Source of the DNA: Blattamonas nauphoetae
Taxonomy: Eukaryota; Preaxostyla; Oxymonadida
Assembly: GCA_033064195.1 (NCBI GenBank)
Contig: JARBJD010000109.1
Coordinates: 1-64,000 of the forward strand
DNA length: 64,000 bases
Reading direction: 5' to 3'
Shown here: piece by piece, positions 1-63,329 of the stretch
Layout: every line of letters starts with the position of its first letter
How positions within the stretch are numbered: position 1 is the first letter of the stretch
Program-made: the position numbers and the translations under genes
Notes under the pieces: generated by a model
The model's input: only the letters and a program-made list of their open reading frames with translations
Told to the model about the DNA's origin: nothing
Databases searched by the model: none

Positions 1-13
1 TTCAAGATCTCTT

Positions 14-7927: not shown

Positions 7928-8660
7928 ACTAATGCGTGGATACTCTGCTCCAAACGTCACAGATATTCAGGAACTATGTGGTACCTTCAATACAGTGATT
8001 GAGGGAAAGATGCTGATTGCCTGCAATGAACTGAAGAATGCTGGTGAGGAAAGAATGTCCAATTTTGATGCCCTCAAATCCATAATATCAGATACAAGTT
8101 TTAGAGCAAACGAGAAAGGAATCGCTCGTCGTGATGCCGAGAATGTAGCCAACCTAATCTTCTGTACAAACAATGCATATCCAGTAAAGATTGAAGTCGA
8201 CGATAGATGTTACTGTGTGTGCAAAGTGTCCAATAAACGTAAGGATGATGCCAACTATTTCCTAAACCTCATTCGCTCATTCTCTCCTGAATTCTACTCA
8301 CATTTGTTGACCTACTTCAGACAAAGGGACATTTCCACATTCAATCCAAGACAATTGCCAAACACAGATGCAAGATGTCTACTCCAGGAGGTGTCCAGAT
8401 CAGCAATTGGAGACTTTTGCCTGCAACACATTGACGAATTGGAGAAAGGAATGCCATGCTCAATTGCGGCTGAACTCATGCCTGAATATTACAAAAAACT
8501 AAAGACGTTCCAGATGGATTTAAATGAGCATTGTACCAGAAAGAAAGTCACAGTGAATAAAACAAGAGTATGGTGCTATGTGATCGATCCAAAGTATGCA
8601 GAACTGCTCAGAAGGTCTGCTCTTGAATCAGAAATCGATGAAGAAGACAATCTAGAATAA
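7791..8660 (+). CDS. Superfamily 3 (D5/S3H-type) helicase of the Polinton-like element
   Basis: Replicative helicase of the element. Walker A is GMQGIGKN (about residues 31-38), Walker B lies in LIACNEL (about 84-90) and the motif C/sensor region reads IFCTNNAYP followed by VDDRCY, the pattern of superfamily 3 helicases of virophages, nucleocytoplasmic viruses and some Polinton-like viruses. The C-terminal third looks like a winged-helix tail with many acidic residues at the very end. It overlaps the primase gene and ends 30 bp before the first satellite core. A primase-helicase pair next to a PolB gene is unusual for canonical Polintons, which rely on PolB alone. Confidence 0.78.
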   Translation: MTELYNFILNWISFVIQNPGQKTASVIILKGMQGIGKNVWTNVLCELMRGYSAPNVTDIQELCGTFNTVIEGKMLIACNELKNAGEERMSNFDALKSIISDTSFRANEKGIARRDAENVANLIFCTNNAYPVKIEVDDRCYCVCKVSNKRKDDANYFLNLIRSFSPEFYSHLLTYFRQRDISTFNPRQLPNTDARCLLQEVSRSAIGDFCLQHIDELEKGMPCSIAAELMPEYYKKLKTFQMDLNEHCTRKKVTVNKTRVWCYVIDPKYAELLRRSALESEIDEEDNLE

Positions 8661-8689
8661 GCATAACAATGTAGATATATTTTTGAAGA

Positions 8690-11600: not shown

Positions 11601-12084
11601 TCATTTATGGGATTTACTTTTTGCTCATTGCTGTCATATTACAAATTATTATGGATTCTGTGGATTTTTCATTGGTGTTGGATTTCAATGGTGTTTTCCT
11701 AAGACGATTGACCGACCAAAAGTGCCCCAGGTGCCCCAGGTGGATCGGGTTTTTAAATTGGTTTTTATTTTTGGCGGTCCACGGTCCACAAGTCCACATG
11801 GCCACAAGTGCAGAGGCATGAGTAGAATGAATAGAAATGATAGGGACATTGACGATGGTGGATTTGGTGGATTTTTCATTAGTATTGTATTTCATGAGTG
11901 ATTTCCTAGGACTATTGACCGACCAAAAGTGCCCCAGGTGCCCCAGGTGGATCGGGTTTTTAAATTGGTTTTTATTTTGGCAGGTCCACAGGTCCACAAG
12001 TCCACAAGTCCACAGGAGCGCAGAAATGGTCTTATACTGATGGCTATATACAGTCTTTATCTTTTCTTTTATATACTGACCTGA
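8690..12084 (+). repeat. Complex satellite array, segment 1 (cores 1-12)
   Basis: Every unit has the same core of about 85 bp beginning CCAAAAGTGCCCCAGG, with a doubled TGCCCCAGG, an AT tract, then three or four GTCCACA(A/G) heptamers. Cores start at about 8702, 8984, 9264, 9613, 9895, 10240, 10522, 10804, 11085, 11367, 11716 and 11923. Between cores are three spacers giving units of about 282 bp (A), 349 bp (B) and 207 bp (C). The order here is A A B A B A A A A B C A. Units differ almost only in homopolymer length, which points to recent homogenisation. It begins 30 bp after the helicase stop. Confidence 0.95.
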
Positions 12085-15625: not shown

Positions 15626-17779
15626 CCGTGGTTGGACAACCCGTCCAAATTGGAAAACCCGTCCACCTGAGAATCGGACACAAATTGTTGGTATGAATAT
15701 TTCTTTATTGACTTTTGTTTTTGTTCTCATTTTCGACTCATTGATAAATTTTTATTTGTTGCAATAGATTGAAATGAAATTTAATCTTTTTTCCTAACTT
15801 TGACTTCGAACGGAGGGATCTTCCCTAAATTTTGTTCATCCCGTTCCTTCACAACCACCTCTTTTTACCTCTCGCGAATTCGTTCCATGACCGTATTATC
15901 TCCTTCTAAATACTCATTGTTCTTTTGTTCTCACTCTTTCTCCATCTCCTTCCAGAACGTTGGACCAACAAGTCGGACTCCAAAGTGGAACGCAAATTTA
16001 TCCGAAGTGAAGGCGTATTTGAAAAAGAACAAGATTGAACAAAAAGATCAACTTCTCACGTTGCTGAAGCTCGAACAGAAAATGAAAATTTTGCCAGGGA
16101 TCATCCAATCCATCACTGGCATTCATAGTCGCTCTCTCTCTCGAGCAAGAGCAGCTATGAAAGAAAATCGTCCAATACAACAACCAGGACGTCCCTCCAA
16201 AGTACCTCCAGCAGAACTTGACCGTCTTCGATCCTGGCTTAAGGAACAAGTTGAACTGAAGAAAGAGATCACACGTCCGATGGTCCAAAGAAGGTCTTTT
16301 TCACCATTTTCCATCTTTTCAGATCCAAAACATATTGGTTGGATCTTCCAATCCTAAAACAAGGCTGATCGAACTCGATGACAGCTGGGCATGGAATTTC
16401 TGTGATGCGAATCCCGATCTCTTCTTCTCGCGACCTATTCAAATGGATGCTCCAAAAATTGCAGCAAGCAACGAACAAAACATGGTTGAGTGGATGACTC
16501 AATTGAAAACTGTGATTGATACCTTCAGCATACCGAACGATCTTATTTTTGACTACGATGAAACAGGGTTCTCTACCATCCATGATTCAAGAGTAAAAGT
16601 GATTCACGGCGCTGGAACTCCCACACCTATCAAAGCGAAACCTACTAAAATCCAAAATTTCACTCTGGCGTGCACCGTTTGTGCTGACGGATCGCATCTA
16701 CCTCACGCACTTGTTTACCCACTTAAATCTCAGCCAAGTGAATTTAATTCACTTCGCACTTTTCATATTATCCCGTATTGTTTGGGAAATGGGTATGTGA
16801 ATAGTTACATCTTTAGCCGCATTCTGGAAGAGACTATCATCCCAGCAATCAACACCAAAAGAAACGCACCGAATCTCACGAACCAGTGGGCATTACTTCT
16901 TCTCGATAACTGTAGTTCACACTTGTCCTCAAATATTGCTGAAATGTGTAAAACGAACAAAATTCAACTGCTATCTCTCCTCCAAACACAACACACCTCA
17001 CCCAACCCCTCGACGACAAAATCTTCCAATCCCTCAAGAATCAATACGACAAATTCTATGCATCACCTCTTGAGTTCTCTCAACAAGCGCATCGGACAGC
17101 GATTGTTTCCGCGCTTCCGCTCGCCTGCCAAAAGGCATTCACGATCGACACAATCGTTTTATCGTTTCGACGCTGCGGAATCTTGGATAGAGATGTGACA
17201 CATATCCTCCATCGACTGCCAGACAATCTTGATACCGTCAAAGATGGAATAAAGACCAAACCAAGTGATTGTGGAGACAGTTCGTATGCCGGCATTCGTT
17301 CAGTGGTCAGTGCTGGAATCCTCCTAACATCGACTGAGTCGATGGAAAGACGAAAATGAAGGAAAGAAAACAGGAATCAAGGGAAGAACGAAAAAAGGAA
17401 CAGGAAGTTGTCAAGAAGAAGTGCAACCTTCGAAAAACAACCATGATTCAGCGACCCAGAGCTGTCAAGAAGACTATTGAACAAGAGCGAAAGAAAGCTA
17501 AGAAGCCCAAGAAGCCCAGAATGAGGCGCACAACAATCACAACTCGATCTGCAACGAGAAACGGGATGAACAAAATTGAGGGAAGATCCCTCCGTTCGAA
17601 GTCAAAGTAAGGAAAAAAGATTAAATTTCATTTCAATCTATTGCAACAAATAAAAATTTATCAATGAGTCGAAAATGAGAACAAAAACAAAAGTCAATAA
17701 AGAAATATTCATACCAACAATTTGTGTCCGATTCTCAGGTGGACGGGTTTTCCAATTTGGACGGGTTGTCCAACCACGG
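15626..17779 (+). mobile_element. pogo-like (Tc1/mariner superfamily) DNA transposon
   Basis: 2154 bp with long terminal inverted repeats (about 219 bp, 15626-15844 and 17561-17779; at most a few mismatches) that begin CCGTGGTTGGACAACC. It is inserted into a satellite A unit whose uninterrupted form reads CTATATACAGTC; TA is duplicated at both ends, the Tc1/mariner signature. The interior encodes a DDE_1-type transposase on the plus strand. The near-identity of the two inverted repeats indicates a young insertion, younger than the satellite unit it interrupts. The terminal 30 bp contain a doubled CCCGTCCA motif, a plausible transposase site. Confidence 0.9.
15800..17345 (+). pseudogene. pogo/DDE_1 transposase, probably one frameshift
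   Basis: N-terminal helix-turn-helix DNA-binding region at about 15990-16270. The catalytic core shows the three acids of DDE_1: YDETGF at about 16555, LLLDNCSSH at about 16895 and a third in a HLTQPLDD block at about 17005. A 40-nt GT..AG intron at 16277-16316 would join the two main frames in phase (ITRPM to IQNIL), matching the short introns of the host genes here. Past NKIQ (about 16965) the family motif continues in another frame, so one base has been lost or gained near 16970-16985. A Lys/Arg-rich tail lies at 17356-17610 in yet another frame. The start codon is not resolved. Either a recently inactivated copy or an artefact of the assembly, which shows many homopolymer differences. Confidence 0.75.
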
Positions 17780-42870: not shown

Positions 42871-45055
42871 ATGCCTCCGATAAGAACTACTCGCTCTCTG
42901 GAGCTTTTTGAATGTACTCAAAATGAATTAGAGCAAGAACATTTCCTTGACAGTCCACCAATCATGCTCCGTCGTAACAGGAGAGCTACATGTGACTTAT
43001 CGAAGTTCAAGGATCAACCTGCTTCACACTCTCCGAGTATTACTGTACCTTTTTATTAGAAAATAGCAGTTTATCAGAAGATGAGTTTAGATGCAATTTT
43101 TGTCGCTCTTGGAGAAGAACAACGAACCGACATTCCTGATCTCCTCGTTACTCTTCATGATTTGACAGGTATTCCAAGATTTATTTCTCACAGTATGCTC
43201 CTGAGCAGGTACTGATGACAACCGGAGAAGACTCGTCCAACACAATTCGATCCCGCTCCTCTCACAACTTCTGATGAGTTCACAAGATCACAGAGTGATA
43301 GTATGATTCATTTTTTCAATGTACTAGGATTAGCATCTTATTCTCCGGATACTCTCTGATATTGGTATGACTTCTACTCCTCCCTGTTATCCAACAATGT
43401 TCATATTTGTCAGTAACATTACCAACAGATGAAGTTCACCACTCTTTTGATGACAATGTACTCCGGGCAATTATTGGCTTTGCTCAGAGCGGTTCACTAT
43501 GCGTGATGGACGCGGTTTGCCTCAATCCAATCTCAATCTGATTCAGGCTTGGTGGTTCCTTGACAATTTCACCATCATTGACCATGATCAGAATGAATTT
43601 GTTGATAAACTTGTGCGACTGGGGATATTTGAAGTGTTCACTCCAGCAATGATTCAACTGGCCAGCCGAACAATCCAACGACCTGCATGGCATTTGCGAT
43701 CTCTAAACCTCATCGCCAATGCCTCAGAATTGCAGTTTCCGCTCATGACAATGGTCATACCAGAACATCAAAAAAGCTGTCGCCGCATCCTCAGAACGAT
43801 CAAACGTCTCGCGGCCATCACTCACACTCCCCTCACGGCAGACGTAGCCACATTTATTTTTATGGTGTTTGTATCAGGCTGTTCTATGGACATCGACAGT
43901 GCTGTGGATGTTCTTTTTTTAGATTTGGGGCTCCTTCAAGACCTTTCCTCAGTGATCTACCATACACCAATGCCTCCGTTCTTCCCTCCACACATCCAAT
44001 CATTTTCACAACTCGCAATTTCGCTTTTGTCGTATGCATGTGAGGGTCTTTCAAGCGGATATTGTGCATATACAGTCTTGAACGAAGCCCAGACACAACA
44101 CCGAATTTCTGAGAGCAAGAAGAAAGCACTAGCCATACAACCTGATTCAGGAGTGTCAGATGAAGATAGTCTCAAGAAACAGATTGTTATCGAGCTCAAC
44201 AACTATTTCTATATCGCAAGGAACGTTTTGCACGTGATTGGCACAGCCATACCTGGAAGTGCTGATGTGGCAGACTTTTATCTCAATGCTGGTCTTCTCC
44301 CATTTCTTGGAGAATGTATTCATATTGTTCAGGCAATCCAACATGATGAACTGCCCCACGACTGTTCTCTCCTCACCTTGACAAAGGCGGATGTGGCAGA
44401 TGGAAACCCCGGAGAATTATGGAGGAGGACACTCAAAATCATTCAGTCTCTTGATTGCACATCACTCGCAACCGAGGAAAAACAGCAAATGTCCGCTTCA
44501 TCACTCACTACCCAATCTCACGATCAAATGAAACTTTCGAACATATATCCGAAGCATATAAAAGAGGTTCTTCACAATATCTCCATTTGTCTGTCGAATA
44601 TCTCAGGAATCACTGAATTACATTCACTGAGAGTACTGAACGAAACTTTCCCACAACCACATTCCCCTCAGAAGTTTCTACAATTTGTCTCTGATCGGCT
44701 TGTTGATGTCACGTCGTCATCATATTATGCGGATTTGTCAATCATTCACGGATTGTTCCTCTATCGAAGTGCACCAATTTTCTCAGAAATTGAGAAGGGC
44801 CAAGTTCTCGGAGCTATCTTTGCTTTCAAATGGAATCGACACACTCATCCAATTGCAGACACCTGTGTCTGCATTTTTTTCGAGATTCTTATTGCCTTCA
44901 TGTGGAATGCCTCCAATCCTAGAATCATATTCGACTATGTCCAGAATGATGTGATTGAACAAAACTTACTCAAATCAACAAAAGAATTATCCAAACAAAC
45001 GACGAAAACAATGGAAATCTTCTATCAGCATCTTGCTCACTTCATACACACATAA
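42871..45055 (+). CDS. Armadillo-repeat, importin-alpha-like protein (gene A, left copy; six exons)
   Basis: Exons 42871-43036, 43070-43168, 43209-43300, 43334-43364, 43414-43514 and 43547-45055; introns of 33, 40, 33, 49 and 32 nt, all GT..AG. Joined they give 665 residues. The same five introns stand at the same codons in the paralogue at 61149-63329, which is the main support for the model. The N-terminal 60 residues are charged with an RRNRR cluster, like a short importin-beta-binding-type leader; then follow divergent armadillo helices, clearest in residues 60-230, where VWWFLDNFTIID resembles the AxWALxNI helix of importin-alpha. Family usual length is 500-550, so this is longer. Likely role: nuclear import adaptor or another ARM scaffold; inferred. 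It lies 2.3 kb upstream of gene BC in the same direction. Confidence 0.75.
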
Positions 45056-47240
45056 CATAACCCGTTCCCAGTCTTTGTGAGACACACGTCTCTATTTGTC
45101 GTTTACTTCCATTTTTCTCTTATAATAACAGTTCAGGATGATCAACGATAACATTGTGTGGGTTTATTCCTGCCTGAGACTGATTCTTACAACGTGGGGA
45201 CCAATTTTGACCGTTTTGCCCTGAGTCTCACGGACCATCTCAGATTTTCATGAACGGCTTCTTGGATCTTTCTTGACATCCACAGGCTGGTATAATTCTG
45301 AACTTTCTGATGGAATCATTTTCCTCAAGAGAACTGAAAAACATGATGTTAAGAAGGCTAGCTTCAATTCTGCCCCAATCTCCACTTTTTGGATGTTCCC
45401 GATCAACACAGTCAGAACACGAGCGGTTTTCGAATTTAATGATGATTCTGTTGCGTCTCGAGAGAAATGGAGGAAAAGTTGACGATGGAGAAAGATCCAC
45501 TTCCAACTGCTGCATTCGCGAGGTTTGTGAATGATTTGAGAGGTAAAAGGGCTGTTCCAGTGTGAGAGGAGGATTCGAAGAGATCAGAGAGGTAATCGGT
45601 CCAGATATGGGTGACTTTCCACCACACCTTGAGACGAGTGGGTTTGAGGGTATCAGTACTCCTCCAACTTCGAAGAGGATGAAAGTGATTATCTTCTTGT
45701 CGATATTCACGGAGTAGTCTTTGCCCCAGAGTGCCTGATTGGCCGAACTTAGAGATTTGGGGGAGAGGTGACATGGCCTAATGGAAGGCATACTTTTGGT
45801 CAGGCATTGAAAAGTGGGGTGCGGATGGAGTGAAGAAGGATGCGGGTTGCGGAGGAAGATCGGTCAGTGAAACTGACAACAAAGTTTTGGATGAAAGTCT
45901 TGAAGGGTCCAGGAGGACTGAGAGAGAAGAGATGAGAGAGAGTTTTCCTCACTGTTCAAGGTCATTCCATCTGGCACGATTCATCATTGCTCTACGGCTA
46001 TCTGAAATGCTGAACATCGTCAGGAACCTTCGAAGGTCCGAAGAAGTCGCCGATCTGCGAGCGTGAAGGTTCAGTCGTTTTCTGGGCTCACTTGAGTTTT
46101 GAGATCAATATGACCGATAATTAGAGGTTGATGCCGTCTAAAATTGCAGCCGATGAGCCAAACTGCATGCACGCATTGAGAACTCGACAATCGAAATGTT
46201 GATCGTAGATATTGTCTGTATGATTTGGTGAGTTTGCTGAAGTGCAACTATTGGTCTGAAGAAAACAACAAGATCTCCATTTCAGTTGGGAAGACGGCCT
46301 TGGTCTTGCCAAAACTGAATGTGGCTGACGTGAACGTTGCACTGCATCCATTAAATTCAATTTCTTCCCTTGATTTGAGAAGATGTCTTTCGACGTTCTC
46401 GTTGTTGGGATTTGTGTCGGAATCTCTTTTGCGCTATTCACGGCCCCTTTCTGAACGACTTGTCGAACAGCTCAGTTCCACAGTCCATTTTATCATTCCT
46501 GCCGCGTCTTGACGAAGACGTTGGCTGTCCCGGATGAGGGCTCGCCGGATGGCTTCTTTTTATGTTTGGCTGTCTTTCCTGCCTGGGACATGTTTGGGGA
46601 GAGTACCATGGATCTCACCAACTCCATCTTTTGGGTGGCGTGCTTGCCTTTGCCTGCCGAGATCCGTTCGCCGACCTTTCAATTGCAAAACTCAGCGGGA
46701 TCCCAGATCACTGCAACAAACCCTTCAAAACTACAGCCCTGCACAAGGTCACTGTCAAAAGAAAAGAGAGATTCTTGATACTGACTTTTTCCGGAATCTG
46801 CCAGATGCTTGTTGTCTGTACTCACCCTCTCGTTCGTCGACCCCCAAGTCAGGAATGATGAAGAACCTGCACAATTTGGATGATTTCATCTTGAACTCAG
46901 TTCGTACAGAAGAAGAACCTGCTTGTAACGGCCACGAAAAACGAAGACGTGAAGGTCAAAAATACTCAAATTGTGAAGAAACAACACAGCAACTGCTCTC
47001 TTGACAGTTGTCATCATTCTCTGTGTGTTTAAGACATCAGAAAGAGGAAAGAATTGCATGTATGCACGGCTAGCCCGAAGCGGAATCCTCTCGCATGCAG
47101 CTGAGAGCCAGAGACAGTCTTTGAAGTGTTGACAGAAATAACTTTGTGGTGCTTGCTTCCTGAACCCCAACACGGAAGAATATGAAATGACGCATGACCG
47201 ATCGTCGAGTTTTAGATTTAGAGTGTGGGGATGGACAACT
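45056..47240. other. About 2-kb segment between genes A and BC, absent from the other arm
   Basis: In the right arm A and BC are only 286 bp apart; here they are 2.3 kb apart, while the last 120 bp before BC are conserved. The extra part therefore is an insertion here or a deletion there. It holds a 183-codon minus-strand open frame (45240-45791) with a CSDC..C cysteine cluster and, on the plus strand at 46380-47000, short frames including a hydrophobic MSFDVLVVGICVGISFALF start. I recognise none of these, and no terminal repeats stand out. Confidence 0.5.
45240..45791 (-). CDS. Uncharacterised open frame, 183 codons
   Basis: Open from an ATG, opposite to the flanking genes A and BC and lying wholly in the extra segment. 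It has no recognised domain; a CSDC pair and a later CGC may bind metal. A second frame of 112 codons overlaps it, so coding status is doubtful; it could also be a relic of the inserted segment. Confidence 0.2.
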   Translation of the reverse strand: MPSIRPCHLSPKSLSSANQALWGKDYSVNIDKKIITFILFEVGGVLIPSNPLVSRCGGKSPISGPITSLISSNPPLTLEQPFYLSNHSQTSRMQQLEVDLSPSSTFPPFLSRRNRIIIKFENRSCSDCVDREHPKSGDWGRIEASLLNIMFFSSLEENDSIRKFRIIPACGCQERSKKPFMKI

Positions 47241-47244
47241 TTGG

Positions 47245-47362
47245 AATGATCGGCCCTTCGTTTGCAATATTGGATCCGAGATAAATACCCTTTTGCCTCT
47301 TCACCGGATTTCTTTCTTCATTATCGGTCACTGTGCCCTTGCGTTGGACTTAACTCTTGCGC
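47245..47362 (+). promoter_or_regulatory. Conserved upstream region of gene BC
   Basis: The 118 bp before the ATG match the 119 bp before the right-arm relic (60863-60981). Two blocks are nearly unchanged: AATGATCGGCCCTTCGTTTG at 47245 and ATCGGTCACTGTGCCCTT at about 47324. Conservation of these blocks next to diverged sequence suggests promoter or 5'-UTR elements. No TATA box is evident. Confidence 0.5.
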
Positions 47363-50300
47363 ATGGGACACGCAGTCAGCCGACGCCTTGGGCAGACGCA
47401 GTACACTCCCAAAGTGCTCAACGTTGAAGCTCTCATTGAATTGTTTCGAAAGCTTCAAATCGTTGTAGATTCTTGTGTTGGAGTCCTTCATCGAAACGAT
47501 TTTCTGAATTTCGATCATGACATTGATGATACCACACTTTGTGACCTTTCACGTTTCGTATATCTGTCCTTCGCCACCATTCGTGAACAACCAAATGAAC
47601 TCGGCCCATTGGAACATTTCTTCTTCCGTTCTGCCATTCTTTCTGTATTTGGTCACATCATTGTGAATGCAATCACGTACATTAATCGCAAAGATTTGAA
47701 ATACCCGTTTCTTCATGTTGTCACTGGCACGCCTGGAATAGGAAAATCGGCAAGTCGATATCCATTCATCACACTGTTGATGAGTTACGGAGTCAGGGTG
47801 TGGTTTTCTTCCGAAATTCAATTCCATTTAGGATATTACAACAAAAAGAAATTGTGAATGCGCATTTGTGTTCCGCCGAGTAAACAAGGCGATAGCTGGT
47901 TCTGCGAGAATAACCACCAAGAATTCAGATGGGAAGAGTGTTACTCTTAAAGTCCCAACGTATTTTTATCATTACGATGTTTATGCTTTCTACTTCAACG
48001 GAGGAGCAACTAAACGAGACGACTCAGAAGATGAAAATAAACCCGAATCGACGACTGAAGCTACTTACGACCCAGCAGAATTTCACAATATTCTAAACGA
48101 TCCTGACAAGCCATGTCCAGTCCTGGGACAACTCATTGTCCCGAGTGTGGAACACTTCCCTCGTTTCCTCCGTCTCATGACCGGAAACAACACTCACGAC
48201 TTCGACAAAGCCACCAAAACAGACTATGACATCACTATTACAGCACGATCGTTTCTCAAGAAGGGGTCAGTGTTTGCTACCGATTCATCGCTAATCATTC
48301 GTGGACCGCACCAGAACAGCGTTGTTTTTCCGGGTACTGCACCTCTTGAAGCTGACCTCAGAATCGAAGCAGGTTCGACAATCAAAGCTGGATCGACAAT
48401 AGGTCGTGAATCGTCCCTCATTTATTTCTCGGTTCAGAACAAACTCGAAAACACTGGATGGCATGTCATCGATGAGTTTGTATTTTTTTTCGTCATCGTT
48501 CTCAGTCTCAAAGTCTCAGAGAAAACATTCATCTCGCAAAACGACCATTGTGTCCTCTTCACTTCACCACAGGGATCAAGATGGAACGAAACGAACACCT
48601 CAGGGAAAGGCAGACAGTGTTTCATTGCTGAATATGTTGTTCCGAAATTTTCGCTGCAAGAAGAAGCAGCGCTCCTCAACACGATGGGTCAAGCTAGAGA
48701 GCTTCGTAGCGACGAACTGGCCACTCTTAAAGTGGGACTTCAAATGTTTTCATTCGTTCCACGCCTCATCTTGGAACCGGGCCGAACTCGAGGTACACTG
48801 GATTCTATAGCACAAGCGGAATTGAAGACTGATGTTAGTCGAAGTGATCTCTTTGGGCCGAAAGTCTCGCACAAACTCCTTCACTTCTCATGTCCGCAGT
48901 TTGACTGCCACAATTGGTTCGTCCAATTTGCGACCAACAAAGCTCGGCTATTTGTCTTGGATATGTTCAATCTGGAAAGTACAAAGCATTACATTCACTT
49001 CCTCAAAACAATGACCAAAAATGTTGAATTCAACCAAAAAAAAGCAGCCATCTTCCACAACTTTGTGTTGGATGCCATCGCTTGCGGGTTCTCCATCTCC
49101 TTCCCAACTCGATTCTTATCCAATGAACCTCTCAATTGTGAGAAGCTCGATCTCCCGATAATCATGGGAGAATCAAACATCTATCTCCGAAGCTCGTCGA
49201 ACATCCGTCGTGCATTTCTGCCAGACATCTCTGGCATCGACAAAAAAAAGCTCTTTCCGTTTGAACAAAAGTACGACATCCTCTTCAAAAATCCGATGCT
49301 CCCACGCTTGATGCAGTCCAGCCAAATGGACGACCGGGATGGTACCAAGGAGCCAATTTTGGCGACGTTGGTAGACCACAAGTGCAATGCAAGTGAACCA
49401 CCGGCAATTCCCACGGTCATTCCAGCTTCTGAATCCTTCCCGTCCACATCAGGAATGGCCACGCGTCACAGAAAAAAGATGAACACCCTAACTCCCCCGA
49501 TCGTTCCAACTCCTGGATCCGTACAGTCCACATCGGAGTCATTCATGCCTTCCAAAAAAAAGGCCAAACCAACTCCCAAATTATCTCACGATTCCCCAAA
49601 TTCCCCTTCGACGACAGACGATCCTAACATCAAATGCTTCACCTATTCGTTGAACCCACTTGGAGGAAATACCGCTGGCTTCGATTCCATTCTTCTGTTC
49701 TTCAAAGTGCATGAAGAGCAAGCTGAGTTGAAGATCGACGCACTTTCAGTCATGTTCATCCAGTCAACACTTGCATCACACCATTCCATCAGCTCAGCTG
49801 GCTCGAATTTGATGTTTCTGTGTCTCGCGCTGTTCGCCAACATCTACAATCTCAAGCAAGAAGTCATTTTTCCATTCCTCTTCTTTGTGAAGAGCCCATT
49901 TGTTGACGAGTTCACATTGGATGGTGATAACAATTCGAAGTTCTTCATGGATCCAAAGAACATATGGGTGATTAATGGATACGCAGCCCAGAGGAGCCCG
50001 GTGGATGGCTCAATACATGTCGAATACAATGGAAGCGTTGTCGAATACAAAGGACGCTTGATTCTGGATTCTGTTGTGTCGCTGTTACCGAACACAAATC
50101 CGAATTACTTCAGGTGTTGCTTTTGTCATCTCGTCTTGAAAGCAGATTTCTCGAATCATCGCTGCAAAAAGCTTCAATCAAAAGAACCTATTCAATCGTC
50201 AGAACAACTCATCAGTTCGCCATGGGTGGCATATGCTTCTGGAATGGGGAAAATCGGGGTGTATGACCGTGAGAATCCACAAGTTAATTTTGAACGGAAG

Positions 50301-52976
50301 GAAGGTTCACGGCTACTGACGAAGGTTCTCTTTACTCTGGTGGTAGAAGACGAGCCGAACAGCACATCTGGCCACAGCTCGACCATAGACTGTGGTGGGT
50401 ATGGGATCAACTTGAATTATAACCAAAAGGGACTATCTCCAAACTCTCGTGACAATCACAACAGAATTGACATGATCGACATTGTGCTCATCAAACCAAA
50501 AAAAGACAAAGACAATGAATTCCCTATGATAGATGTCTCACCAGAACCCGAGCCACCCGATGACTCATTTGAAGTGACATATGATGGGCCGATTCTCGAC
50601 CTTTTCTCTTACTCCGTGCGACGACCTGTCAATGCAATATTTATGGATAGTGTAGTAGAGGATATGTCAGTCAAAGCTGACGTTCTCCAAAAGCTCAAAG
50701 ACAACAAAGATACTATTGCTGAAGTTGATCATCCAAACTCTCATCTGCATGAGTCATTGGAGTTGCTCAGAATTTGGGGAGCGAAGAAAGCGATTGGGTT
50801 CACAAAGGCAGGAACATCGCTGCATGCATATGCAGGAGATACGTCACAAACGCCATTCGACGACGTGGACAGACTGTGTAAGAACCAGTCCATTCCTCTC
50901 TCTCAAATGTTTGTTCCGATGGAATATCTGAATAGGTTGCCTGTCAATTTGTATAACACACGTGAACTCATTCCTTTTGAGATCAAATGCATCCTCACTG
51001 GAGCAAGCTCAACGAAAAGACTCCGTTTGGAACACTTATTCACGAACGAGCATATCAGATATGGAATACCAATGGCACAGAAAGATCTGGAGAAAGTTGT
51101 TGGTGATACAGTCGTCGGCACTCACCTCCTCACGAAATGGCTGATTCCTTTGCGCTCTCATCGCCCAAGCATGATGAATATGAGCCTGAACGATTTATCT
51201 CAGTTAGTTTCGTATGTGAACGGATCATATCTCATCGTTGCAGACATTCTCCAATTATGCATGAAATATCTCAATCGTGAAGATCAGCTCACACTCTCTG
51301 ACCTAACTTCCTTGACGAATTATCTCGATAACGCTGGTTTACCCAATCCTGAAAATCAAGTACCACCAAGTGAAGAGGCGATATTACGCCAACAGACTTT
51401 CTGGAAAGGCATAGACTTTCGGGTTTCACAATCTCTTCAATATTTATCCGCGAATAGCTCTTCCTTCATTGGGAGTCTGGATGGGAAACCGACATTCGTC
51501 CAACCGACTTTGTCTGCACTTAACAATGTTACAAAGGAGATCACTTTAAATAAATCTTCCACATATAATGCGGTCGACCTTCTCACGAAACTGACAGAAA
51601 TGAAAAAGCTAATTGAGATCAGACTCGATTTCATGAAAACTTGTCTCGGGCATGGCCTGAACATTGTTAACAAACAGCTTCAGCTTCTTGTTGCCCAAGT
51701 GATTGGAAAGCAGCCATTACCTGAATTTACCAACGACGACCGTGCTCATCTGATCGATCAGTATGGAACAAACCCATTGTTGTCTCCATGGCATCGCCTG
51801 ATGTTGATTCCTTTCTTCTTGGATGTTTCGCAGAATCAGGAAAGGAACAATCTGATTGTCAAACTCAAAGAATCCAGCGATTCCTCACTCGAACAGCATG
51901 AAATCGATTTTCTGTATGCATTTCTTACAATCCAAGCTCCTCTGGATGACCAAGAAACTACAAACCTGAGATCTGTCGTGGAAAACAATTTCAAGGACCC
52001 ATCCAAAACGGAGCTAATCAATCTTATTAAGGGGAGCTGCCATCAGGAGGGAACGTTCCATCGCTTGCCAAACACTTCCGAGTACAAAACCAAATGGTGT
52101 GACACAATGAACCGGCTAGAAAATAACCAACACTACAATTTGGACAGGGCCTTTCTGGGTTACTGTTTGGAGACACAGCATCCACTGAAAGATTCCAAAA
52201 AAGATAGGCTGATATCACTTATCGACAACTCCACTCTCCCAGCCAAGGAGAAGAACACACTGCACGTTTTGATCACTGGGAAGCCGATCTACTCGCAATT
52301 CCGTCGAGAAACGATCGTCAGCTACTATCTCTATCTTCCGTTCAACCACAACAGCAGTCTTCTCGATCAAATCAAGAATTCACCGAGTCTGAGTGAGCAG
52401 AAAAAAGCCGAGAAAATCGAGCTTGCGACGACAGAACTTGCACGGTCTGATCTAGAAATTGCCACCGAATTTGTGCGTCATCCTCTCAAGTCTGCAGAAC
52501 GAGACCTGAATTTGTTGTTCAAGATTCTCAAAGGAGAGGAGCATGTGAGTCAAAGACGACGACAGCAACTCATCACAAAGATTCGCCACATCCAACAAAG
52601 TATCATTCAAACAAAGAAAGATATGTGTGTTCGTCTTGGAAAAGATGGTCGGCTTTCGTGGATGGATCTCGCTTCTCTTCTTTGTTCTCCGAATGGCGAT
52701 CAATCGCAATATTTGGTTGCCATTCGATCATTTGATGAGAACAATCCATTGGACACAAAAGGTCTCGATGATGTGGCGATCGATGGTATCTATGACAATG
52801 ATTTGGGCATCGAACGCACTGGAACACCACCAAATCGTCCAACCAATCAACTCGGCGATTCACCTTATCACGAAGAACCGTCAACACCTTTACCTTTTCC
52901 GCATCGATCAATTGTTATCACACCAAAGAACACCATCGACAAACGCTCGGGAAGCGACGACCCTGAAAATCAGTAG
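47363..52976 (+). CDS. Crinkler/RHS-type P-loop NTPase with REase-like domain and long C-terminal extension (gene BC)
   Basis: Exon 1 47363-47797, intron 47798-47831 (34 nt), exon 2 47832-52976; 1859 residues. The intron is supported by the right-arm copy, where a 30-nt GT..AG intron sits at the same codon and 39 bases follow before the shared GTGTTC. Walker A is GTPGIGKS (122-129), then a VFRR strand, a Walker-B-like VIDE (about 357-360), a TSPQGSRW sensor loop (about 389), YVVPKFSLQEE (about 413) and VSHKLLHF (about 490), the order seen in Crinkler and Trypanosoma RHS NTPases. A REase-like part follows with FDSILLFF (about 762) and FIQST (about 788). A CxxC...HxxxxC zinc finger is at about 907-924. 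Residues 960-1800 are helical and unassigned; the tail is disordered. In known relatives such proteins act in the nucleus or as effectors; here the role is unknown. Confidence 0.75.
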
Positions 52977-53322
52977 ACACGCAAACGAATAATTTCTTTT
53001 TCATCCATTCACTTCACAGAAAGGTCATCATTATCAGAATGGTAACTTGCAATTGAATGAACAGAATAGAAAGAACAGAATGTGTAGAGGTGACCAGGGC
53101 TCGAGGGATTCCCACGTTGAAAATAGGAAACCCCGAAGTTTGGGGGGATCTCAGCAGCCCTTAATTTTGTCTTGTCTGATTCTCCGTTTTTCCGAAAAGA
53201 ATGCGTAATGTGTTCATATGACTAAAATTGAATGATTCTAAAAAATGCACAAAAAATCATGTCGATTTGACTGATTCAGAAAAGAAAAAAGAACAGAACA
53301 CAACACAGACAAACTCAGAAAA
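52977..53322. other. Intergenic region between convergent genes
   Basis: 346 bp between the stop of BC and the stop of the coiled-coil gene, which converge. AT-rich with several A/T runs that could act as 3'-end signals for both genes. No gene or repeat seen. Confidence 0.5.
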
Positions 53323-55899
53323 TTATGATTCATCCACAGCTCTCTCAGAAATAAAGTTCACCTGCCTGACAAATGGCTCAACCTTTTCTCCTTTGGGTGA
53401 TCGGTGATCATCAGACCTCGTCGGCCGCTGAGCAGATGAAGTGGAGGATGGTTGAGGATTTGGGATGGTTGGGCTGGCGATGAAATCACTGAAATGGGAT
53501 GATGTGGATGTGAGAGGAGTGGTGCCAAATGAAGATGATCCAAATGAAGAGAAAGTGAGAGGGGTGGATACCCTTCCATCGCGAAGTGGGCCGTTCATTC
53601 GACCCCTAAGAGAAACCCGCTTGACTTCTGATTTCGTTCCCAGAATCTGTTCAAGCTCAACAACGCGTTTAATGCGGTCAATGAGCTCTTCTTCTAACTT
53701 TGCTGATCGTTGGATTTCCTTGTTTTTTCAATTCTTCCGTGTTTTGGAGAGATTTCAACAAATCAGCCGCTTTCTTTTCCTGTGTCTCGAGAGACTGTTG
53801 TGATGTGAGCTGAGAGACGTGTAAGGAATGTTGGAGCTCAGATTGTTTTCGTGATTGGAGAGTGATTTCTCGGGACAACCGTTCAATGACCTGCTGTTTT
53901 TCGAGAAGGTCTTTCTTCTGCTGATTTAGTTCTTGGTCAAATGCTTCTTTTTCCCTTTTAATTTGAGCTGCCATTGTGGTCTGTTTTGCCAGGAGCTCCT
54001 CTTCTTTGAGCTTGTGTTGATCGACAAGACGCTTCATTTCGTTCTGTTGGTTTGTTGTTAATTCGTTGAGTTGCAGGATGGTTGATTGGAGTTTGTTTCT
54101 TTCTCGTTCTCCATCTTCGTTCGACCGATCAAAGTTTTCTGCCAATCCATTCATCTGTTGTTTCATTTCATCTCTTCGAGATTCTTCAGTTTGAATTCGT
54201 TCTCGAAGCAAACTGAGTTCGTTCTCTGTTTGTTGAAGCTGTTCTGAAAGTGTGTGGTTTGACGAAACAAGCCGTGAGAGAGATTCTGACTTCTCTTTCC
54301 CATCTTCGACTAAACGCTTGAGCTCCGATTCTGTTTGAATCTTTTCATTAGACAGTCGCTCAATTTCTGCTTTGAGGTTGGTATTTTGGGTCATCTCCTC
54401 CTCCACCCGATTTTCCACCAACCTCAGAGACACGATTTGTTCTTTTAATTCCTCATTCCGATTGTTGGCTTCGAGTAGGTTGGCTTCTCCTCGTGCTAAT
54501 CTCTCCAACATTTCGATGTTCTTCTGATCGAGTGCGTTTTGCAACGCTCTTGATGTTCGATGGAGAGTGAAGATCTCAGCGTGGAGGGTGGTGAGAGTCT
54601 GAGCCTGCTCCAGGTTCTCCTTTGCGAGGTTGTGAAGGATTTCTTTGAAAGTGGTCTGTTGATTCTGGATTGTTGAGAGGTGTGTCTCGTTGAGAGATTG
54701 AATGTATTCGTTGTTGCTGTTTCGAAGTCGTGCTATCTCAGCCATGTGGTCAGATTTGAGGGCGGCTTGGATCTGTTCGTTGTCTTGTCGGAGATCAGAA
54801 TATCGTGTGTTGAAGTCTTCCAAGAGCTTGGCTTTCTCAGCCTCCAATTGCTGTTTGGTCTGGTGTAGGTCGTTTTCATACTCTCTTTTCGTCTTTCTCG
54901 TTTCTTGTTCGTAGGCTTCCCTGTCAGAGTTGATTCTCTTCCCAAGTCGGAGGCAGACACGTTGGAGTCCCATTTGTCGTTTGTGCGCTTGTTTGGACTC
55001 GAGCTGAAGCTTCACTTTCTCCTTCTCGAACTGAACTTTCTGATGCTTGAGGGTTCGTTTGGTTTCTGTTTGCAATTCTTCCATTTCTTGTTTGACAAAT
55101 TGAACTTTGGCTTCAGACTCCTGTTGAACTTCAGACATCACGCGATCGTTTTCTTTCTTCATTTTCGAAACATGCTCTTCATTCTCTTGTCGAGACTTGT
55201 CCATCTCCTCGCGCATCGTTAGGATCTTCTCATTGTTTTCTTGACGAGCTTCTTCGAGCTCTCTCTTCATCTCCATAATTCGTGTGTCAGTCTCTTGCTT
55301 CATCTTCTCAACTTGCTTCTCATTCTCGTTTCGGGATTCTTCCATTTGTCTTCGCATTTCATTCAGTCGTTCTTCATTGTCGGCCTTCAAACGAAGTTGG
55401 CGTTCTTCAGCTTCTTTCTTCGTTTCGGAAAGTTGTCTCTCGTTTTCGTTTCGTCGTTCTTCCATTTCTTCTCGAATCAAAGATAATCTGGTGTCGTTCT
55501 CTTCTCTCATCTCAATCAGCTTCTTCTCGTTCTCGTCTCGCTGTGATTGAAGTATCTCATGATGTTGTTTCTTCATTTCCTCTTTTTCAGATTTCAATTG
55601 ATCAATTCGATGCTCATTCTCCTTTCGAATCTCTTCGGCTTCTTTCTTCAAATCAGCGATCTTCTCTGCGTGTTCTGATTTCAACTTGAGGATTCTGTCT
55701 TCGTTTTCTTTCCTTGTTTCTTCCATCTCTCTTCGCATCTCCGGAAGCTTTTCCTCAGATTCAATCTTTTTCCTTTCGAGCAAGTCTTCAGTTTCTTTTT
55801 CTTTCATTTCCATCTTCATTGATTCAATCTTCTCTTCTGATTCTTTCTGAATTTGTGTTCAGTGTTGGCTGCCGAAATGACTTCCTGAACGGTTGTCAT
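53323..55899 (-). CDS. Long coiled-coil protein, one apparent frameshift
   Basis: On the minus strand a 713-codon frame (55819 down to 53678) is almost wholly coiled coil, with repeats of about 28 residues of the type EExRKENExRI in its first third. Its start is best explained by a short exon beginning MTTVQE at 55899 and a 35-nt GT..AG intron (55881-55847). At the other end a run of six T (53723-53728 on the plus strand) marks a one-base shift, after which the heptads go on (EIQRSAKLEEELIDRIKRVV) and lead into a Ser/Pro-rich tail ending at 53323. The shift in a homopolymer may be an assembly error. The product is likely a cytoskeletal or tethering protein; nothing more specific can be said. 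It lies between the two arms of the inverted duplication. Confidence 0.65.
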
Positions 55900-55949
55900 T
55901 AACCTTCTTTGAGACTTGCAAGTGTCGATTCCCAGCAGGTGAAGATGTT

Positions 55950-58900
55950 GACTCGGTTTCAGAATCACTAACATCAAGATGGACAACGGTCCCTCTATTT
56001 CTTTTCTTGGGAGGAGGGTGTTAAACTATTGACTATCTCTTTCGTAAGCTCTTTTGGGTCTTTTCGATAGTTGTCAGATAAGCACAGAATGGCGGACAAA
56101 TAAGGCGCGCCACTGATACTCGGAGAACAGAGAAGAGAGGCGAGATCCTTCCAGGAGAATCGACGATGTAGATTTTGATCATCAAACACTTTTCTATTGT
56201 TGTAATGATGCGAGTTCGGATTTTGTTCGCTTTCTTTTTGATACGTTTTCGTTCTTTTTCATCCACTTTCTGCTCTCCATCCACTTTCTGCTCTCCATCC
56301 ACTTTCTGCTCTCCTCTGATAATATCGAACAGCGACTTCAGGTCTTTCTTGGCAGACTCTATTTCACGAGATATCATATTGACGATGGGTTGTGGATCAA
56401 GACGCTCAGTTTGTCCATATGTCTGAATCTGTGAAACATCATTGAAGAAAGTAATCAGAGTCCTCTTTTGCGTTGTATCCAGCAATGGGTGTCCTTCAAA
56501 CCAACCACACAGGAGAACACGATCAGCGTCGGAAAAGCCCGCCAAAGGTCTTCCGTGAATCAAAAGTTCTTTCAGGTATCCATACTGTTTTTCCACGATG
56601 TTCAGGGCATTCATGAGCAGAGTTTCCATTATTTGGAGACTATCCTCGATTTTTGTTTCTTTCTTTTCAGCGCAGAGAAGGTCCGCCCACACATTTGTGA
56701 GACGTTCAGACGATCCGAAATGTTTTGAAAGATGCTCAATTTTTCTCAATTCCGAGTCGTCGAATGTCGGTGTTCCATCCAGGCTCCCAATGAAGGAAGA
56801 GCTGTTTTCGTCGAGATATTTCTGTGTTTCCGTTATCCGACTCTGAATATCTTCCAAATCCATCATCTCAGCAGCTGGCATTGCTTCTTGCTGTTCGAGA
56901 TATCTCACCAAGAGCGTCAAGTCATGAGGAGTGAGCTGATCGGGACGCATGAGATATTTGGTGCACAACTCGAGAATGTTGACAACACCGAGAGATGATC
57001 CATTCACATACGAAACCAACAGCTGGAAAGTGCTCATACTCAGATGGTTCAGACTTCGGCGATGAGAGTGCAAAGGAGTCAAGCATTGTGTGAGGACCGG
57101 TTCTTTCAGGGATCGCCATCCTAAAATAGCATTTAGATCGTTCAATGGCACGAGCTGCCCACGTTTGAGATGGTCGCTAAATCTGAATTGATTCCGAAGG
57201 AGCGTCTCATTTGGAGAACATGCAGTGAGGAGACATTTGATCTCAAAAGGAAGGAGTGAGCGGACGTTATACAGATTGACTGGCATTCTGTCGAGACAAT
57301 TCATAGGAACAAACATTTGAGAGGGGAATGATCTTGTGGTCACACAGTTGCTTCACTTTGTCGTGATGTGGATGAGAATTACCCACTGCATGAATACAGA
57401 GCTTTCCGTCCTTCTTTGTGAACCCGACCAATTTGTTTTGTCTCCAGAGTCTAACCATGTGCAATGATCCATCAAGATGGTCGATTGGCAGATATCCACC
57501 TGTACTCGGAGTCGACACATCAACGACTCGTTGCGGGAAGTACGAAAAATGTCGAGCATTGGGATTGGATAGGTAGCTTCAAATGAATCCCTTCTTGGTT
57601 CAGAATCTGACGTGGAGGGTGCAATAGGGTGAACAGATTTCCTTTTTCTGTCGGTGCAATGAGCACAATGTCAATCGCATCAATGCGGTTGTGCTTGTCA
57701 CGAGTTCGGAATTAGTCCTTTTGTTGCATACTTCAATCCAATACCAAGCTGACACTCGTGTTCGATTGGCCTGCGGCCAGATGTTTCGTCCAGTTCACCT
57801 TCTCTCCCCAGGTGAAGCACAATATCTGTATACATTCGGGCTCGAGGCACCCGTTTCCAATTTTCTTGTGGGTTGTGACGGTCAAATATCCCGACTGTTC
57901 CCATTCCAGACGAATTGGTCTCCCACGGTGAAGTGATGAGTTCTTCTGACGATTGGACTGGCCCACCAGATTTGAGGCGTTCGCAGATGTGGTTCGGAAA
58001 TCTTCTTCCAAGACAAGTCCACAAAAGCAACACCTGACGTAATTCGGATTTGTGTTCGGTAACACTGAGATAATAGTATCCAGGAGCAACCTGTCAGTGT
58101 ATTTAACTTCCACTGTTCTTGCGGACCCATCCACAACCCAAATGTTCCGTTTGTCCATGAAGAATTCTGTGTTGTTGTCACCCTCCAAGTAGAACGTTTC
58201 GACGTATGGGTTCTTCACAAAGAACAAGGACGGAAAGATGTCACGAAGATGGATTTTGTAGATGCTGGAAAACAGAGCAATCCACATGAACATCAAATTG
58301 GATCCAGACGCACTGATTTTATGTTTTGATGCGAGTGTTGACTGGATGAAGATGACAGAAAGGGCATCGATGACAAAGTTGGGGTTGTCGACGACCAAGT
58401 TGGATTCCTCGTTGTGGACCTTGAAGAACAGAAGAATCGAGTCGAATCCGGAATTATTTGCTCCCAGTGGATTCAGAGAGTAAGTGAAGCATTTGAATTC
58501 AGTCTTTGTAGCGGGTCCGGAATCGTGAGATGAATCAGAAGAGGAAAAAGGGTCAGAGATGGAATCGGAGGAAGGAGAATTACAAGAGGCCCGCGCCCTT
58601 CTTGTCCTGGTTGAATAGGTGACGACCGTTGCCCCATCTTTGGGGATCTTGCGATTGTCTTGATCTTGAAGTTCAACGAATGATATCGTTTTGGCGACAA
58701 CCGCATGTTGGAAGAGGATGTCGTAGCTCTTTTCAAAAGGAACGGGTCTGTCTTTGGGGATGCGAGAGATATCTGGCAGATATGCGTGATGGACGTTCGT
58801 TGAGCTTCGGAGATGGATGTTTGATTCTCCGATGATCCCTGGGAGTTTGAAGGTCTCGCAATCCAGATTCTTTTTCGATGAGTTGGAATGGAGAAGAGAT

Positions 58901-60862
58901 GGTGAGGCCGCCGTCGATGGCATCCAGAACAAAGTTGTGGAAAATGGCTCCCATTTTGTGATTGAATTCACAATTTGATGACAAAGTTGTGAGGAATTGA
59001 TTGTACGTTTCTGTAGCCTGTAGATTGAACATGTCCAAGAGAAATCGCCGAGCTGTGTCTGTCGCAAATTGCACGTACCAATTGTGGCAATCAAACTGTG
59101 GGCATGAGAAGTGAACGAGCCTGTGAGAGACAAGTGGCCCAAAGAATTCCTGTCGACAAGCTTGAATTGTCTTATCTTGGGTGGTCACGGGGAGTCTCTT
59201 GTTCGCTTTATCAGCCAGAACTGGCTCGAAGACCATGCGCGGAACGAACGAAAACATTCGAAGTGCATTTTCATGCTCGTCCGTCGTTGTATCAAAGGTC
59301 GTTGGGATGCTGCCCATTGTGTTGAGGAATGCTGCTTCTTCTTGGAGGGAGCACTTTGGAACGACATATTCAGCGATGAAGTATTGTTTGTTTTCGAATC
59401 AGGGTTCGTTGTGTTCCATCTCGACCCATCCGGGGAAGTGAAGAGGACACAATGATTGTCGAACGGTATGCCTGTTTCATCATTGATTGTGAGACTGAGA
59501 ACGATGATGAAAAAGAACACAAACTCATCGATAACATGCCAGTCTGTGTCGGCGAGTTTGTTCTGAATGGAATAGCCGTAAGCTAGACACGATTTATGAC
59601 TTAAGCTCGATCCTGCTTTGATGATCGACCCTGCTTCGATTCTGATGTTATCGTCGACATCGTCGAGTTGTTTAGGAAGCGAACAGAATTCGTCGAATGG
59701 GTTGGGCTGTGGAGGGAACAAAACTGAACCTTGTGCAATTTCTGAGTCAGGGGCCAGTTCGATTTGATTGTGAACATAGAATGGTTTGTTTTCGACTTTT
59801 TTTTGTTTGAGGAGGTTCATCTTGATTTTGTGGAACGATATGAAGAATCGACCCTTCACTGATCACTGAATGTTTTCCGATGGTCTTTTTCGTTTTTAAT
59901 ATATCCAGTACCTTCACATCGGTTGGCGTAGCAATTTGGCGCAATGTGGAACCTGCAGCAATGGTTGAGCCCTTTTGAGAAACGATGGCGCGGTCACAGT
60001 GATATCATCCGGAGTGATAAAAGTATCTTGGTTGATATTATCTGTTTTCCCAAACATGAGACGGAGGAAGCGAGGGAAGTATTCCACACTCGGAACGATC
60101 AGTTGTCCCAGACACACACCGTTATCTGCAAGGAGTTCTCTCGGTATGTAAATTGCTCCTTCCTTTTGTTGTGAGGGACGGGACAGATTGTGATGTGGAT
60201 TTTGATTTTAATCCTTGGTTGGAGGGATACTTAATAACGTCGTAATGATAAAGATAGGTTTGGGCTTCAAGTACAATATCATTCCCATCTGAATCCTTTT
60301 CCTTTATTGTCACGGTATCGACAATCGTCTTGCTTGCTTGGCGAAACACTAAAGGACATTCACCATATCTCAGCGTTGTGACAGTCTAAAAAACTGAATT
60401 TCTGAAAAATCATACATTCACTCCGAAACTCATCAACAACGTGATGAATGGATATCGACTGGCCGTTTTTCCCATCCCAGGTGTGCCAGTAATAATATGA
60501 AGAAACGGGTTTTTTGGATCGTCATTCAAAGCACCTCGCTTGATGTAGGTCATTGCATTAACAATGATGTGGCAAAAGATCGAAAGTGTCGCAGAACGGA
60601 ACAGATAAGGTTGCAAATCGTCGATTTCATTTGCAGTTTTTGGGAGAGTGCGGAATGCTAAGTACAGGAATTGTGAAAGGTCAGAAAGATCGGCAGTATT
60701 AAGGTCCTGATCGAAATTAATAAAGTCCTTTCGGTGTAGGACTCCGACACAAGAATCAGCAATAATTTGGAGTTTTCGAATCAACAGGATGTGAGCATCA
60801 TTATCAAGCACTTTCGGGTCGTTTTCCAGTTGACCAAGGCGTTGACTAACTGTGGTTCCCAT
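55950..60862 (-). pseudogene. Broken relic of the Crinkler/RHS-type gene BC (right arm)
   Basis: Homologous to the intact gene at 47363-52976 along nearly its whole length, in opposite orientation. Recognisable parts in order: N-terminal region with Walker A GTPGMGKT (about 60480), the sensor and PP-type blocks (about 59450-59250), the REase-like region (about 58480-58330), the zinc-finger region (about 58030) and the helical C-terminal region (57343-56050). A short in-phase intron stands at the same codon as in the intact copy. The gene is broken, with roughly six to eight interruptions. Divergence between the copies is considerable, so the duplication is not recent. Confidence 0.8.
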
Positions 60863-61148
60863 ATGAAAGAGTTAAACCCAATTCAAGGGCACAGCGACCG
60901 AGAATGAACAATGTGGAAATTGGCGAGGCAACAAGGGGATTTATGGTTGATCCACCAGTTTCAAACAAAGGGCCGATCATTTCTATTTTTCATTTCAATC
61001 CACAGACTCCTAATGAGACTTATGATACCAATAATTTGAGAGACGTGTGTGTAGTCTAACCTTCAACTGCTTGAAATAATTCAACAAAAACGGTCAAATC
61101 GAAATTGTTTGGATGGTGGAGACAAGCACATCAAGCCGTTTTGGTTTG
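60863..61148 (-). promoter_or_regulatory. Intergenic region with the conserved BC promoter block (right arm)
   Basis: 286 bp between gene A and the BC relic. The AATGATCGGCCCTTTGTTTG block (60962-60981) and a TCGGTCGCTGTGCCCTTG block closer to the ATG match those before the intact BC gene at nearly the same distance (119 against 118 bp). Confidence 0.45.
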
Positions 61149-63329
61149 TCAGATGGGTCGTTTGAGAATTGCGAGATACTGGTGGAATCGCTCCATTGTT
61201 TCCGTTGTTTTTACAGAGAATTCTTTGGTTGATTTGAGTAATTCCTGTTCAATCACATCATTCTGCACATACTCGAAGATGACGTAAGGTGCGGAGGCAT
61301 TCAAAATGAACGAAATAAGAATCTCGAAAAAAATGCAGAGACAAGTGTCTGCACTCCGATGAGTGCGTCGATACCATTTGAAAGTGAAGATAGCTGCGAG
61401 AACTTGGCTCTTCTCGATTTCGGCGTAAATTGGTGCACTCCGATGGAGGAACAATCCATGAACAATCGACAAGTCCGCACAAAATGATGTCGACGTGTCG
61501 TCAACAAGCCGATCAGAGACAAATTGTAGAAGCTTCTGAGGTGAATGTGGTCCGGGGATTGTTTCGCTCAATATTCTCAGGGAATGCAATTCAGTGATTC
61601 CTGAGACATTCGACAGGCAGAGGGCAATATTGCGATGAATTTTTTTCATATGTTTCGGGTATATGTTAGAAAGTTTCATTTGAACGTGACATTTGGGACG
61701 AAGAAATGAAGTTGGCATTTGCTGCTTTTCATCAGCAGCGAGCGCCATGCAATCAAGTGAAGAAATGACTTCCAGTGTTCTCCTCCACAAATCGCCAGGG
61801 TTTCCTTCCGCAAATTCCGCCGTTGTCACGGTGAGGAGAGAGCAGTCGTGTGACAGTTCATCATGTTGAATTGTCTGAACTACACGAATACATTCTCCGA
61901 GTGCGGGGGCAAGACCAACATTGAGGTATAAACCAGCCACACTGGCGCCTCCAGGAACGGCTGTGCCAATCACATGCAAAACGTTACTTGCGATATGGAA
62001 ATAGTTGCTGATCTCAGTAACAACCCGATTCTTGAGAATATCTTCATCACAATCTCCTGAAGAAGACTGTATGGTCAGAGCTTTCTTCTGGCTCTCAGAT
62101 ATTTGGCGTCGTGTCTGGACTTGGTTCAAGGCAGTATACGCACAATATCCGCTTGAAAGACCCTCACATGCATACGATAAAAGCGAAATCGCGAGCTGTG
62201 GAAACGATTGGATATGTGGAGGGAAGAATGGCGGCATTTGGGTTCTGTAGATCACTGAGGAAAGGTCTTGAAGAAGCTTCTGATCGGAAAAAAGAAGATC
62301 CACAGCACTGTCAATGTCCATAGAACAGCCTGATACAAACGCCATAAAAATAAAAGTCGCTACGTCTGGCGTGAGGGGAGTGTGAGTGATGGTGGCGAGA
62401 CGTCTGATTGTTCTGAGGATGTGGTAACCGCTATTTGGATGACCCGGTATGCTCATTGTTGTGAGCGGAAATTGCAATACTGAGGTATCTGCGATGAGGT
62501 TAAGAGACCGTAGATGCCACGCAGGTTGTTGGATTGAACTGTTAGACAGTTGGATCATTGCTGGAGGGAACACTTCAAATATCCCCAGTCGCACAAGACG
62601 ATCAACAAATTCCTTCTGATCATGGTCGATGATGGTAAAATTGTCAATGAACCACCAAGCCTGAAAAAGATTGAGATTGGATTGAGGCAAACTACTTCCA
62701 TCACGTATAGGGAACTGCTCTGAGCGAATCCAAGAATTGTTTTGAGGATATTGTCATCAAAAGAGTGGTGAACTTCGTCTGTAGGTAATGCGACTGACAA
62801 TTAAGAAAACCGTTGGATACAAGGAGTAGAAACCACACCAATATCTGAAAGTATCCAGAGAACAAGATACTAATTCCACTTGATTAAAAAATGGAATCAT
62901 ACTATCACTCCTTCATCTTGTGAACTCATCAGAAGTTGTGAGAGCAGTGGGAGCATATTGTGTTGGACGAGTCTCCTGCGGTTGTCATCAGTACCTGCTC
63001 AGGAACAAACTGTGAGGAACATAATCATGGGGTACCTGTCAAATGACGAAGAGAAACGAGGAGATCAGGAATGTCGGTTCGTTGTTCTTCTCCAAGAGCG
63101 ATAAGAATTTCATCGAAATTCATCATCTGATAAACTGAAAGGCGCTGAGAAATAGCGTGGCAATACTTGGAGATTGTGAACTTGGCAGATCTTGTAACTT
63201 TGAGATGTCACATGCAGCTCTCCTACAACGGCGGAGCACGATTGGTGGACTGTCGAGTTGTTCTTGTTCAGATTCATTTTGAGGAGATTCCAAATGCTCC
63301 AGAAAGCGAGCAATTCTCATTGGAGGCAT
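61149..63329 (-). CDS. Armadillo-repeat, importin-alpha-like protein (gene A, right copy; six exons)
   Basis: Minus-strand exons 63329-63167, 63134-63036, 62994-62903, 62869-62839, 62793-62693 and 62660-61149; introns of 32, 41, 33, 45 and 32 nt. The joined product is 665 residues, the same length as the left copy although exon 1 is one codon shorter and exon 6 one codon longer. The exon sequences are clearly homologous while introns keep only their ends and length. The start is the ATG of MPPMRIARF, matching MPPIRTTRS in the left copy; the frame stays open further upstream, so an extra 5' exon cannot be excluded. Both copies are intact, unlike the BC pair, so selection seems to keep both. 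The same functional inference applies: ARM scaffold or import adaptor. Confidence 0.75.

Follow-up and report, generated by a model that had tools for sequence, protein, structure and literature searches.

Among the closest described counterparts of the genes considered here are the Crinkler-RHS (CR) proteins, in which an N-terminal P-loop is followed by a domain resembling a restriction endonuclease (REase). PMC5289972 describes these nucleoside triphosphatase (NTPase)-REase proteins from across the eukaryotes, and reports that Crinklers expressed in plants enter the nucleus by way of plant importin-alpha. We analysed a 64,000-bp stretch of the genome of the oxymonad Blattamonas nauphoetae (C12:1-64000, hereafter the window), in which an importin-alpha-like armadillo-repeat (ARM) gene, A, is accompanied in each of two arms by a giant gene of P-loop and nuclease-like character, BC; pairs 1 and 2 lie within the window and pair 3 lies outside it. 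These pairs are members of a dispersed family of two-gene cassettes, with A followed by BC on the same strand, that has been co-inherited through deep divergence.

Adjacency of A and BC recurs well beyond the window in the 88.3 Mb and 837 contigs that were searched (the published assembly comprises 88,537,989 bp in 879 contigs at 44.96% GC, according to PMC10703272). The A family is small, with 32 loci, and is not part of a large ARM family, as an earlier note on this DNA had allowed that it might be. Group 1 has 17 loci (2 of them fragments), group 2 has 9 (about 45% identity to A1) and group 3 has 6 (about 30%). A same-strand BC lies within 5 kb, measured to the BC core match, of 22 of the 26 loci in groups 1 and 2, both fragments included, whereas just 1.07% of the genome falls as close as 5 kb to any BC match. 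The repeated adjacency elsewhere that the earlier note had named as support is thus present in two clades of A, with all nine group 2 loci linked. Among the 22 linked loci, 19 read A to BC and three BC to A (two on C98, one on C321). The four unlinked loci are those on C204 and C185 and the fragments C321:28220 and C741:30, the last of which has its nearest BC 5.9 kb away on the opposite strand. None of the six group 3 loci is linked; unfiltered profile searches of four of their downstream flanks returned no match at inclusion level (best E 0.17), and a group 3 query found no additional A genes beside BC genes that lack one. In these searches 27 of 262 candidates were scored in one BC search and 64 of 77 in one A search, and all candidates in the remainder. 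As queries at the protein level, A, BC and a BC alignment matched Blattamonas proteins only (11/11, 14/14 and 21/21, respectively), by a method that requires shared 5-residue words, so that distant homologues could escape it.

The two genes have also diverged in concert. Trees of A (21 rows) and of BC agree in the split between groups 1 and 2 and in their closest pairs (C22-C607, C279-C281 and C12b-C12c); BC matches below 60 bits were left out of the trees, and the broken A3 and BC2 were represented by one piece each. Across 14 non-identical loci the correlation between A and BC distances is 0.99, a value reached in 0 of 2000 permutations. Inside group 1 it is 0.79 (13/2000), and inside group 2 it is 0.39 and not significant (154/2000). 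As to how the link arose, a constraint uniting BC of groups 1 and 2 to the exclusion of all other BC was not rejected (p 0.27), and one that held only the linked BC rows together was rejected (p 3e-7). The ratio of nonsynonymous to synonymous substitution (dN/dS) ranges from 0.27 to 0.54 in A and from 0.45 to 0.88 in the BC core, and BC is the higher in all 10 locus pairs computed for both; A is still constrained where BC is missing, as the comparison of C204 with C185 indicates (dN/dS 0.27).

The main rival to a joint function is passive co-duplication: A and BC would once have lain side by side where tandem and palindromic duplication is frequent, the block would have been copied many times, and proximity alone would hold the genes together. 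Block copying by itself predicts congruent A and BC trees. The young copies are segmental, one in tandem on C22 (10.67 kb apart) and others inverted on C98, C10 and C12. Much of the set of loci arose by duplication from other loci in it, and the linkage counts are therefore not independent events. Two A genes stand without BC, and many BC genes stand without A: an A lies within 12 kb of 25 of the 91 BC clusters and is lacking at 66, the clusters being hand-merged search matches of which some are pieces of one gene (as on C299). The expectation in the earlier note that BC genes scattered without A would tell against the pairing is therefore borne out in part, since most BC clusters lack a nearby A even as linkage recurs from the side of A. 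What passive copying explains less readily is that the linkage persists in 22 of 26 loci, and throughout group 2, and that the old copies have mostly lost their outer flanks and yet keep the pair and its spacer. That spacer measures 218-315 bp in 9 of 12 compared pairs and 1.2-2.3 kb in the other 3, with 71-86% identity over full-length matches and 63-87% over partial ones. Because homology of pair and spacer outlasts that of the flanks, the pair has been preserved where its surroundings have mostly been lost, and we regard passive co-duplication as a substantial possibility that nonetheless falls clearly short of an even chance.

A second rival explanation is a two-gene mobile element in which BC would be the enzyme of a transposon-like unit and A a helper or passenger. 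In 21 of 21 comparisons among seven group 1 loci, homology begins between -30 and +6 of the A start, and in old group 1 copies it mostly stops 52-82 bp past the BC stop; the copies are dispersed over many contigs, and a transposon link for NTPase-REase proteins has been proposed (PMC5289972). Among seven group 2 loci, matches on the 5' side are mostly confined to the final tens of bases ahead of the A start, except that some between C10, C319 and C281 span at least 260 bp. On the 3' side, similarity extends to about 140-160 bp in C98/C289, C12c and C594 have one additional short match in common, and the C22 and C607 copies stay at 79% identity or more as far as the data reach. The 52-82 bp limit is shared with BC genes that have no A, and may therefore mark the end of a transcript and not of an element. 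Recent copies moreover reach beyond the unit, introns are retained, and the flanks of arm 1, the one copy tested, contain no terminal inverted repeat above chance (best inverted match E 1.0). A mobile element is accordingly the less likely of these two explanations, and we consider it improbable.

The earlier note had described the window locus as the inverted duplication of a two-gene cassette (Table 1). The arms are indeed paralogous and on opposite strands, each has A then BC on its own strand, the region upstream of BC is conserved between them, and both A copies have open main exons (533 and 534 aa) preceded by matching short exons. A single duplication event did not stand. Arm 1 matches arm 2 at 82.5% identity over 2168 bp covering A with its introns and at 62-72% over pieces of BC, and the spacers differ in length (2.3 kb in pair 1 against 289 bp in pair 2), whereas arm 2 matches C12:65300-73168, just outside the window and in opposite orientation, at 99.1% over 4070 bp and 99.8% over 1633 bp. 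In the trees A2 clusters with A3 and BC2 with BC3. The locus is therefore a young palindrome, pair 2 with pair 3, beside an older cassette: A1/BC1 is an older paralogous pair, and arms 1 and 2 are not the products of one inverted duplication. No full open copy of BC2 is present; its minus-strand frames cover 60413-60871, 59188-59862, 58736-59398, 57736-59184 and 56033-57352. The 17.1-kb contig C741 holds a near-copy of part of this locus, 99% identical in the BC C-terminus and 98.8% in the DNA past the stop, and is perhaps an alternative haplotype or a duplicate.

Table 1. Features of the two arms in the window
Feature	Position	Strand	Remarks
A1	42871..45055	+	NCBI BLNAU_13003, 665 aa, importin-alpha-like ARM protein; ATG at 42871; AF2 model and fold search
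A1 short leading exons	42871-43038, 43069-43170, 43208-43303, 43413-43514	+	main exon starts at about 43523
A1-BC1 spacer	45056..47362	+	2307 bp; final ~150 bp share homology with the short spacer in other pairs
16-base element AAATACCCTTTTGCCT	47283..47298	+	lies ahead of many BC starts, whether or not A is present
BC1 first exon	47363..47797	+	Walker A GTPGIGKS
BC1 second open frame	47832..52976	+	1714 aa
BC1 nuclease-like region, putative PD-(D/E)XK-type fold	49053..49896	+	placed via alignment to modelled homologue P0025
BC2	56033..60862	-	broken into several frames, with an open P-loop exon at 60416-60862; identity to BC3 about 99%
A2-BC2 spacer	60863..61151	-	289 bp; 71-73% identity to C266 and C594 spacers
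A2	61149..63329	-	second importin-alpha-like ARM gene; ATG at 63329; 534-aa main exon open

Such a locus could also be an artefact of assembly, with inverted arms produced by long-read fold-backs and frame breaks by read errors. The assembly was built from Nanopore reads and polished with Nanopolish and Pilon, as stated in PMC10703272, the copies on C98 are identical in their core, as are those on C10, and BC2 is frame-split despite its near identity to BC3. Arms 1 and 2 are just 62-83% identical and adjacency recurs at diverged loci on separate contigs, so the main result is untouched, and an artefactual origin seems to us very improbable.

The likeness of A to importin-alpha, claimed in the earlier note, holds for the whole solenoid: an AF2 model and fold search place it as an importin-alpha-type superhelix of about ten ARM repeats, and a profile of A against the PDB was informative as well. 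Identity in the structural alignment is only about 12%, and A further departs from importin-alpha in its genetic linkage to BC and in a thin array of WxxxN motifs, which in importin-alpha line the groove that reads the nuclear localization signal (NLS). We counted 0-2 such motifs in six group 1 proteins, one of them N-terminally short, and 3-4 in three group 2 proteins. A role as a classical import carrier is weakened because this array is thin. The N-terminal tail of A has a conserved basic motif; a genome search with the importin-beta-binding domain (IBB, PF01749) gave no match anywhere, and its controls were equally silent. Pfam returned little for single A and BC proteins, and the nine matches to Arm in the genome all lie at least 10 kb from any listed BC or A. 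The sole place with an Arm_3 match (the importin-alpha C-terminal repeat), C24:442704-442826, scores below the cut-off (27.5 vs 28.8 bits) in a 543-aa frame that is a candidate for the ordinary importin-alpha of B. nauphoetae. Fifteen short matches cover A residues about 484-528 only. Their identity is 47-58%, with E values from 1e-5 to 2e-4, and the frames that hold them are about 90-110 aa long; these C-terminal pieces are on C190, C227, C194, C55, C634, C34, C778, C44, C69, C703, C56, C200, C486, C501 and C90.

BC is like the CR proteins in having an N-terminal P-loop, ahead of a putative REase-like domain, and the order of its conserved blocks is similar to the CR pattern. It differs in its giant size, a Cys/His motif (found in 17 of 24 BC proteins), a frequent N-myristoylation-type start and the neighbouring A. 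The NTPase half of the NTPase-REase assignment made in the earlier note is supported by a Walker A motif in 22 of 24 BC proteins (the exceptions being P0003, whose P-loop exon is separate as P0007, and P0024, which starts later); the REase half draws on weak but consistent matches to nuclease folds of PD-(D/E)XK type. The more specific Crinkler/RHS label found no support in these searches. Neither the Crinkler header, for which Pfam has a model, nor RHSP appeared when 14 BC proteins were scanned at E up to 10, and a whole-genome search with RHSP (PF07999) gave no match, its control being silent as well. The myristoylation-type start (MGxxxS/N) occurs at 12 of 13 assessable group 1 BC loci and 0 of 9 in group 2 (the truncated C557 and C149 set aside), and was therefore rejected as a common trait of A-linked BC; in group 1 it may tether BC to membranes, and the genome encodes an N-myristoyltransferase. 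Clusters of basic residues in the BC linker fail to distinguish A-linked from unlinked BC proteins. The 16-base element ahead of BC is found at 28 further places outside BC genes, often ending GCCC, and may be a wider promoter element.

Elsewhere in the window, a 726-aa open frame between the arms (53678-55858, minus strand) is rich in Glu, Lys and Arg, coiled-coil-like and of AT skew -0.42, and matches no Pfam family at E <0.1. Positions 1-8660 carry Polinton-like genes: a DNA polymerase B at 2-3886 (DNA_pol_B_2, E 6e-8), an integrase-core match below cut-off at 4063-5202, and a DUF5906/VapE-like helicase region at 7779-8660 (E 5e-19). From about 8660 to 12000 and beyond we spotted by eye tandem-like blocks with the common string gtgccccaggtgccccaggtggatcggg, and an open frame at 16260-17198 has a DDE_1 transposase match slightly under the Pfam cut-off (19.6 vs 22 bits).

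Taken together, the adjacency and joint evolution of A and BC suggest that their products act as partners. That A is a dedicated binding partner of the neighbouring BC, its escort or controller, we hold to be a good possibility, at a little under an even chance. The ARM groove of A would hold BC or a stretch of it, and A would either escort BC towards the nucleus or keep its nuclease idle until needed; we prefer a binding controller to a classical import carrier because the NLS-reading array is thin. BC would in turn be a host-encoded weapon aimed at invading DNA, or else an effector whose controller is built in. Linked conflict pairs, among them toxin-immunity pairs and, for example, CifA/CifB of Wolbachia, are likewise adjacent and co-inherited, with a faster-evolving enzyme-like gene beside a slower binding-type gene. 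The A-BC genes differ from them in being intron-bearing nuclear genes of which the enzyme-like one is often solitary. By this analogy the cassettes might form a dispersed eukaryotic conflict module, with an importin-alpha-fold escort or immunity partner controlling a giant NTPase-nuclease, a more specific proposal that we consider doubtful. In the literature searched, which left most subscription journals outside, we found no paper that joins an NTPase-REase protein to a linked ARM or importin-like gene, and the main text of the genome paper (PMC10703272) contains none of the terms armadillo, crinkler and importin.

If the pair is functional, it would represent a new wiring of a host-encoded nuclease, in which an import-adaptor fold has been recruited to another job. 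Little is known of how NTPase-REase proteins of the Crinkler/RHS type are controlled by the cells whose genomes carry them, and the linked importin-alpha-fold partner is a concrete candidate for their control or nuclear delivery.
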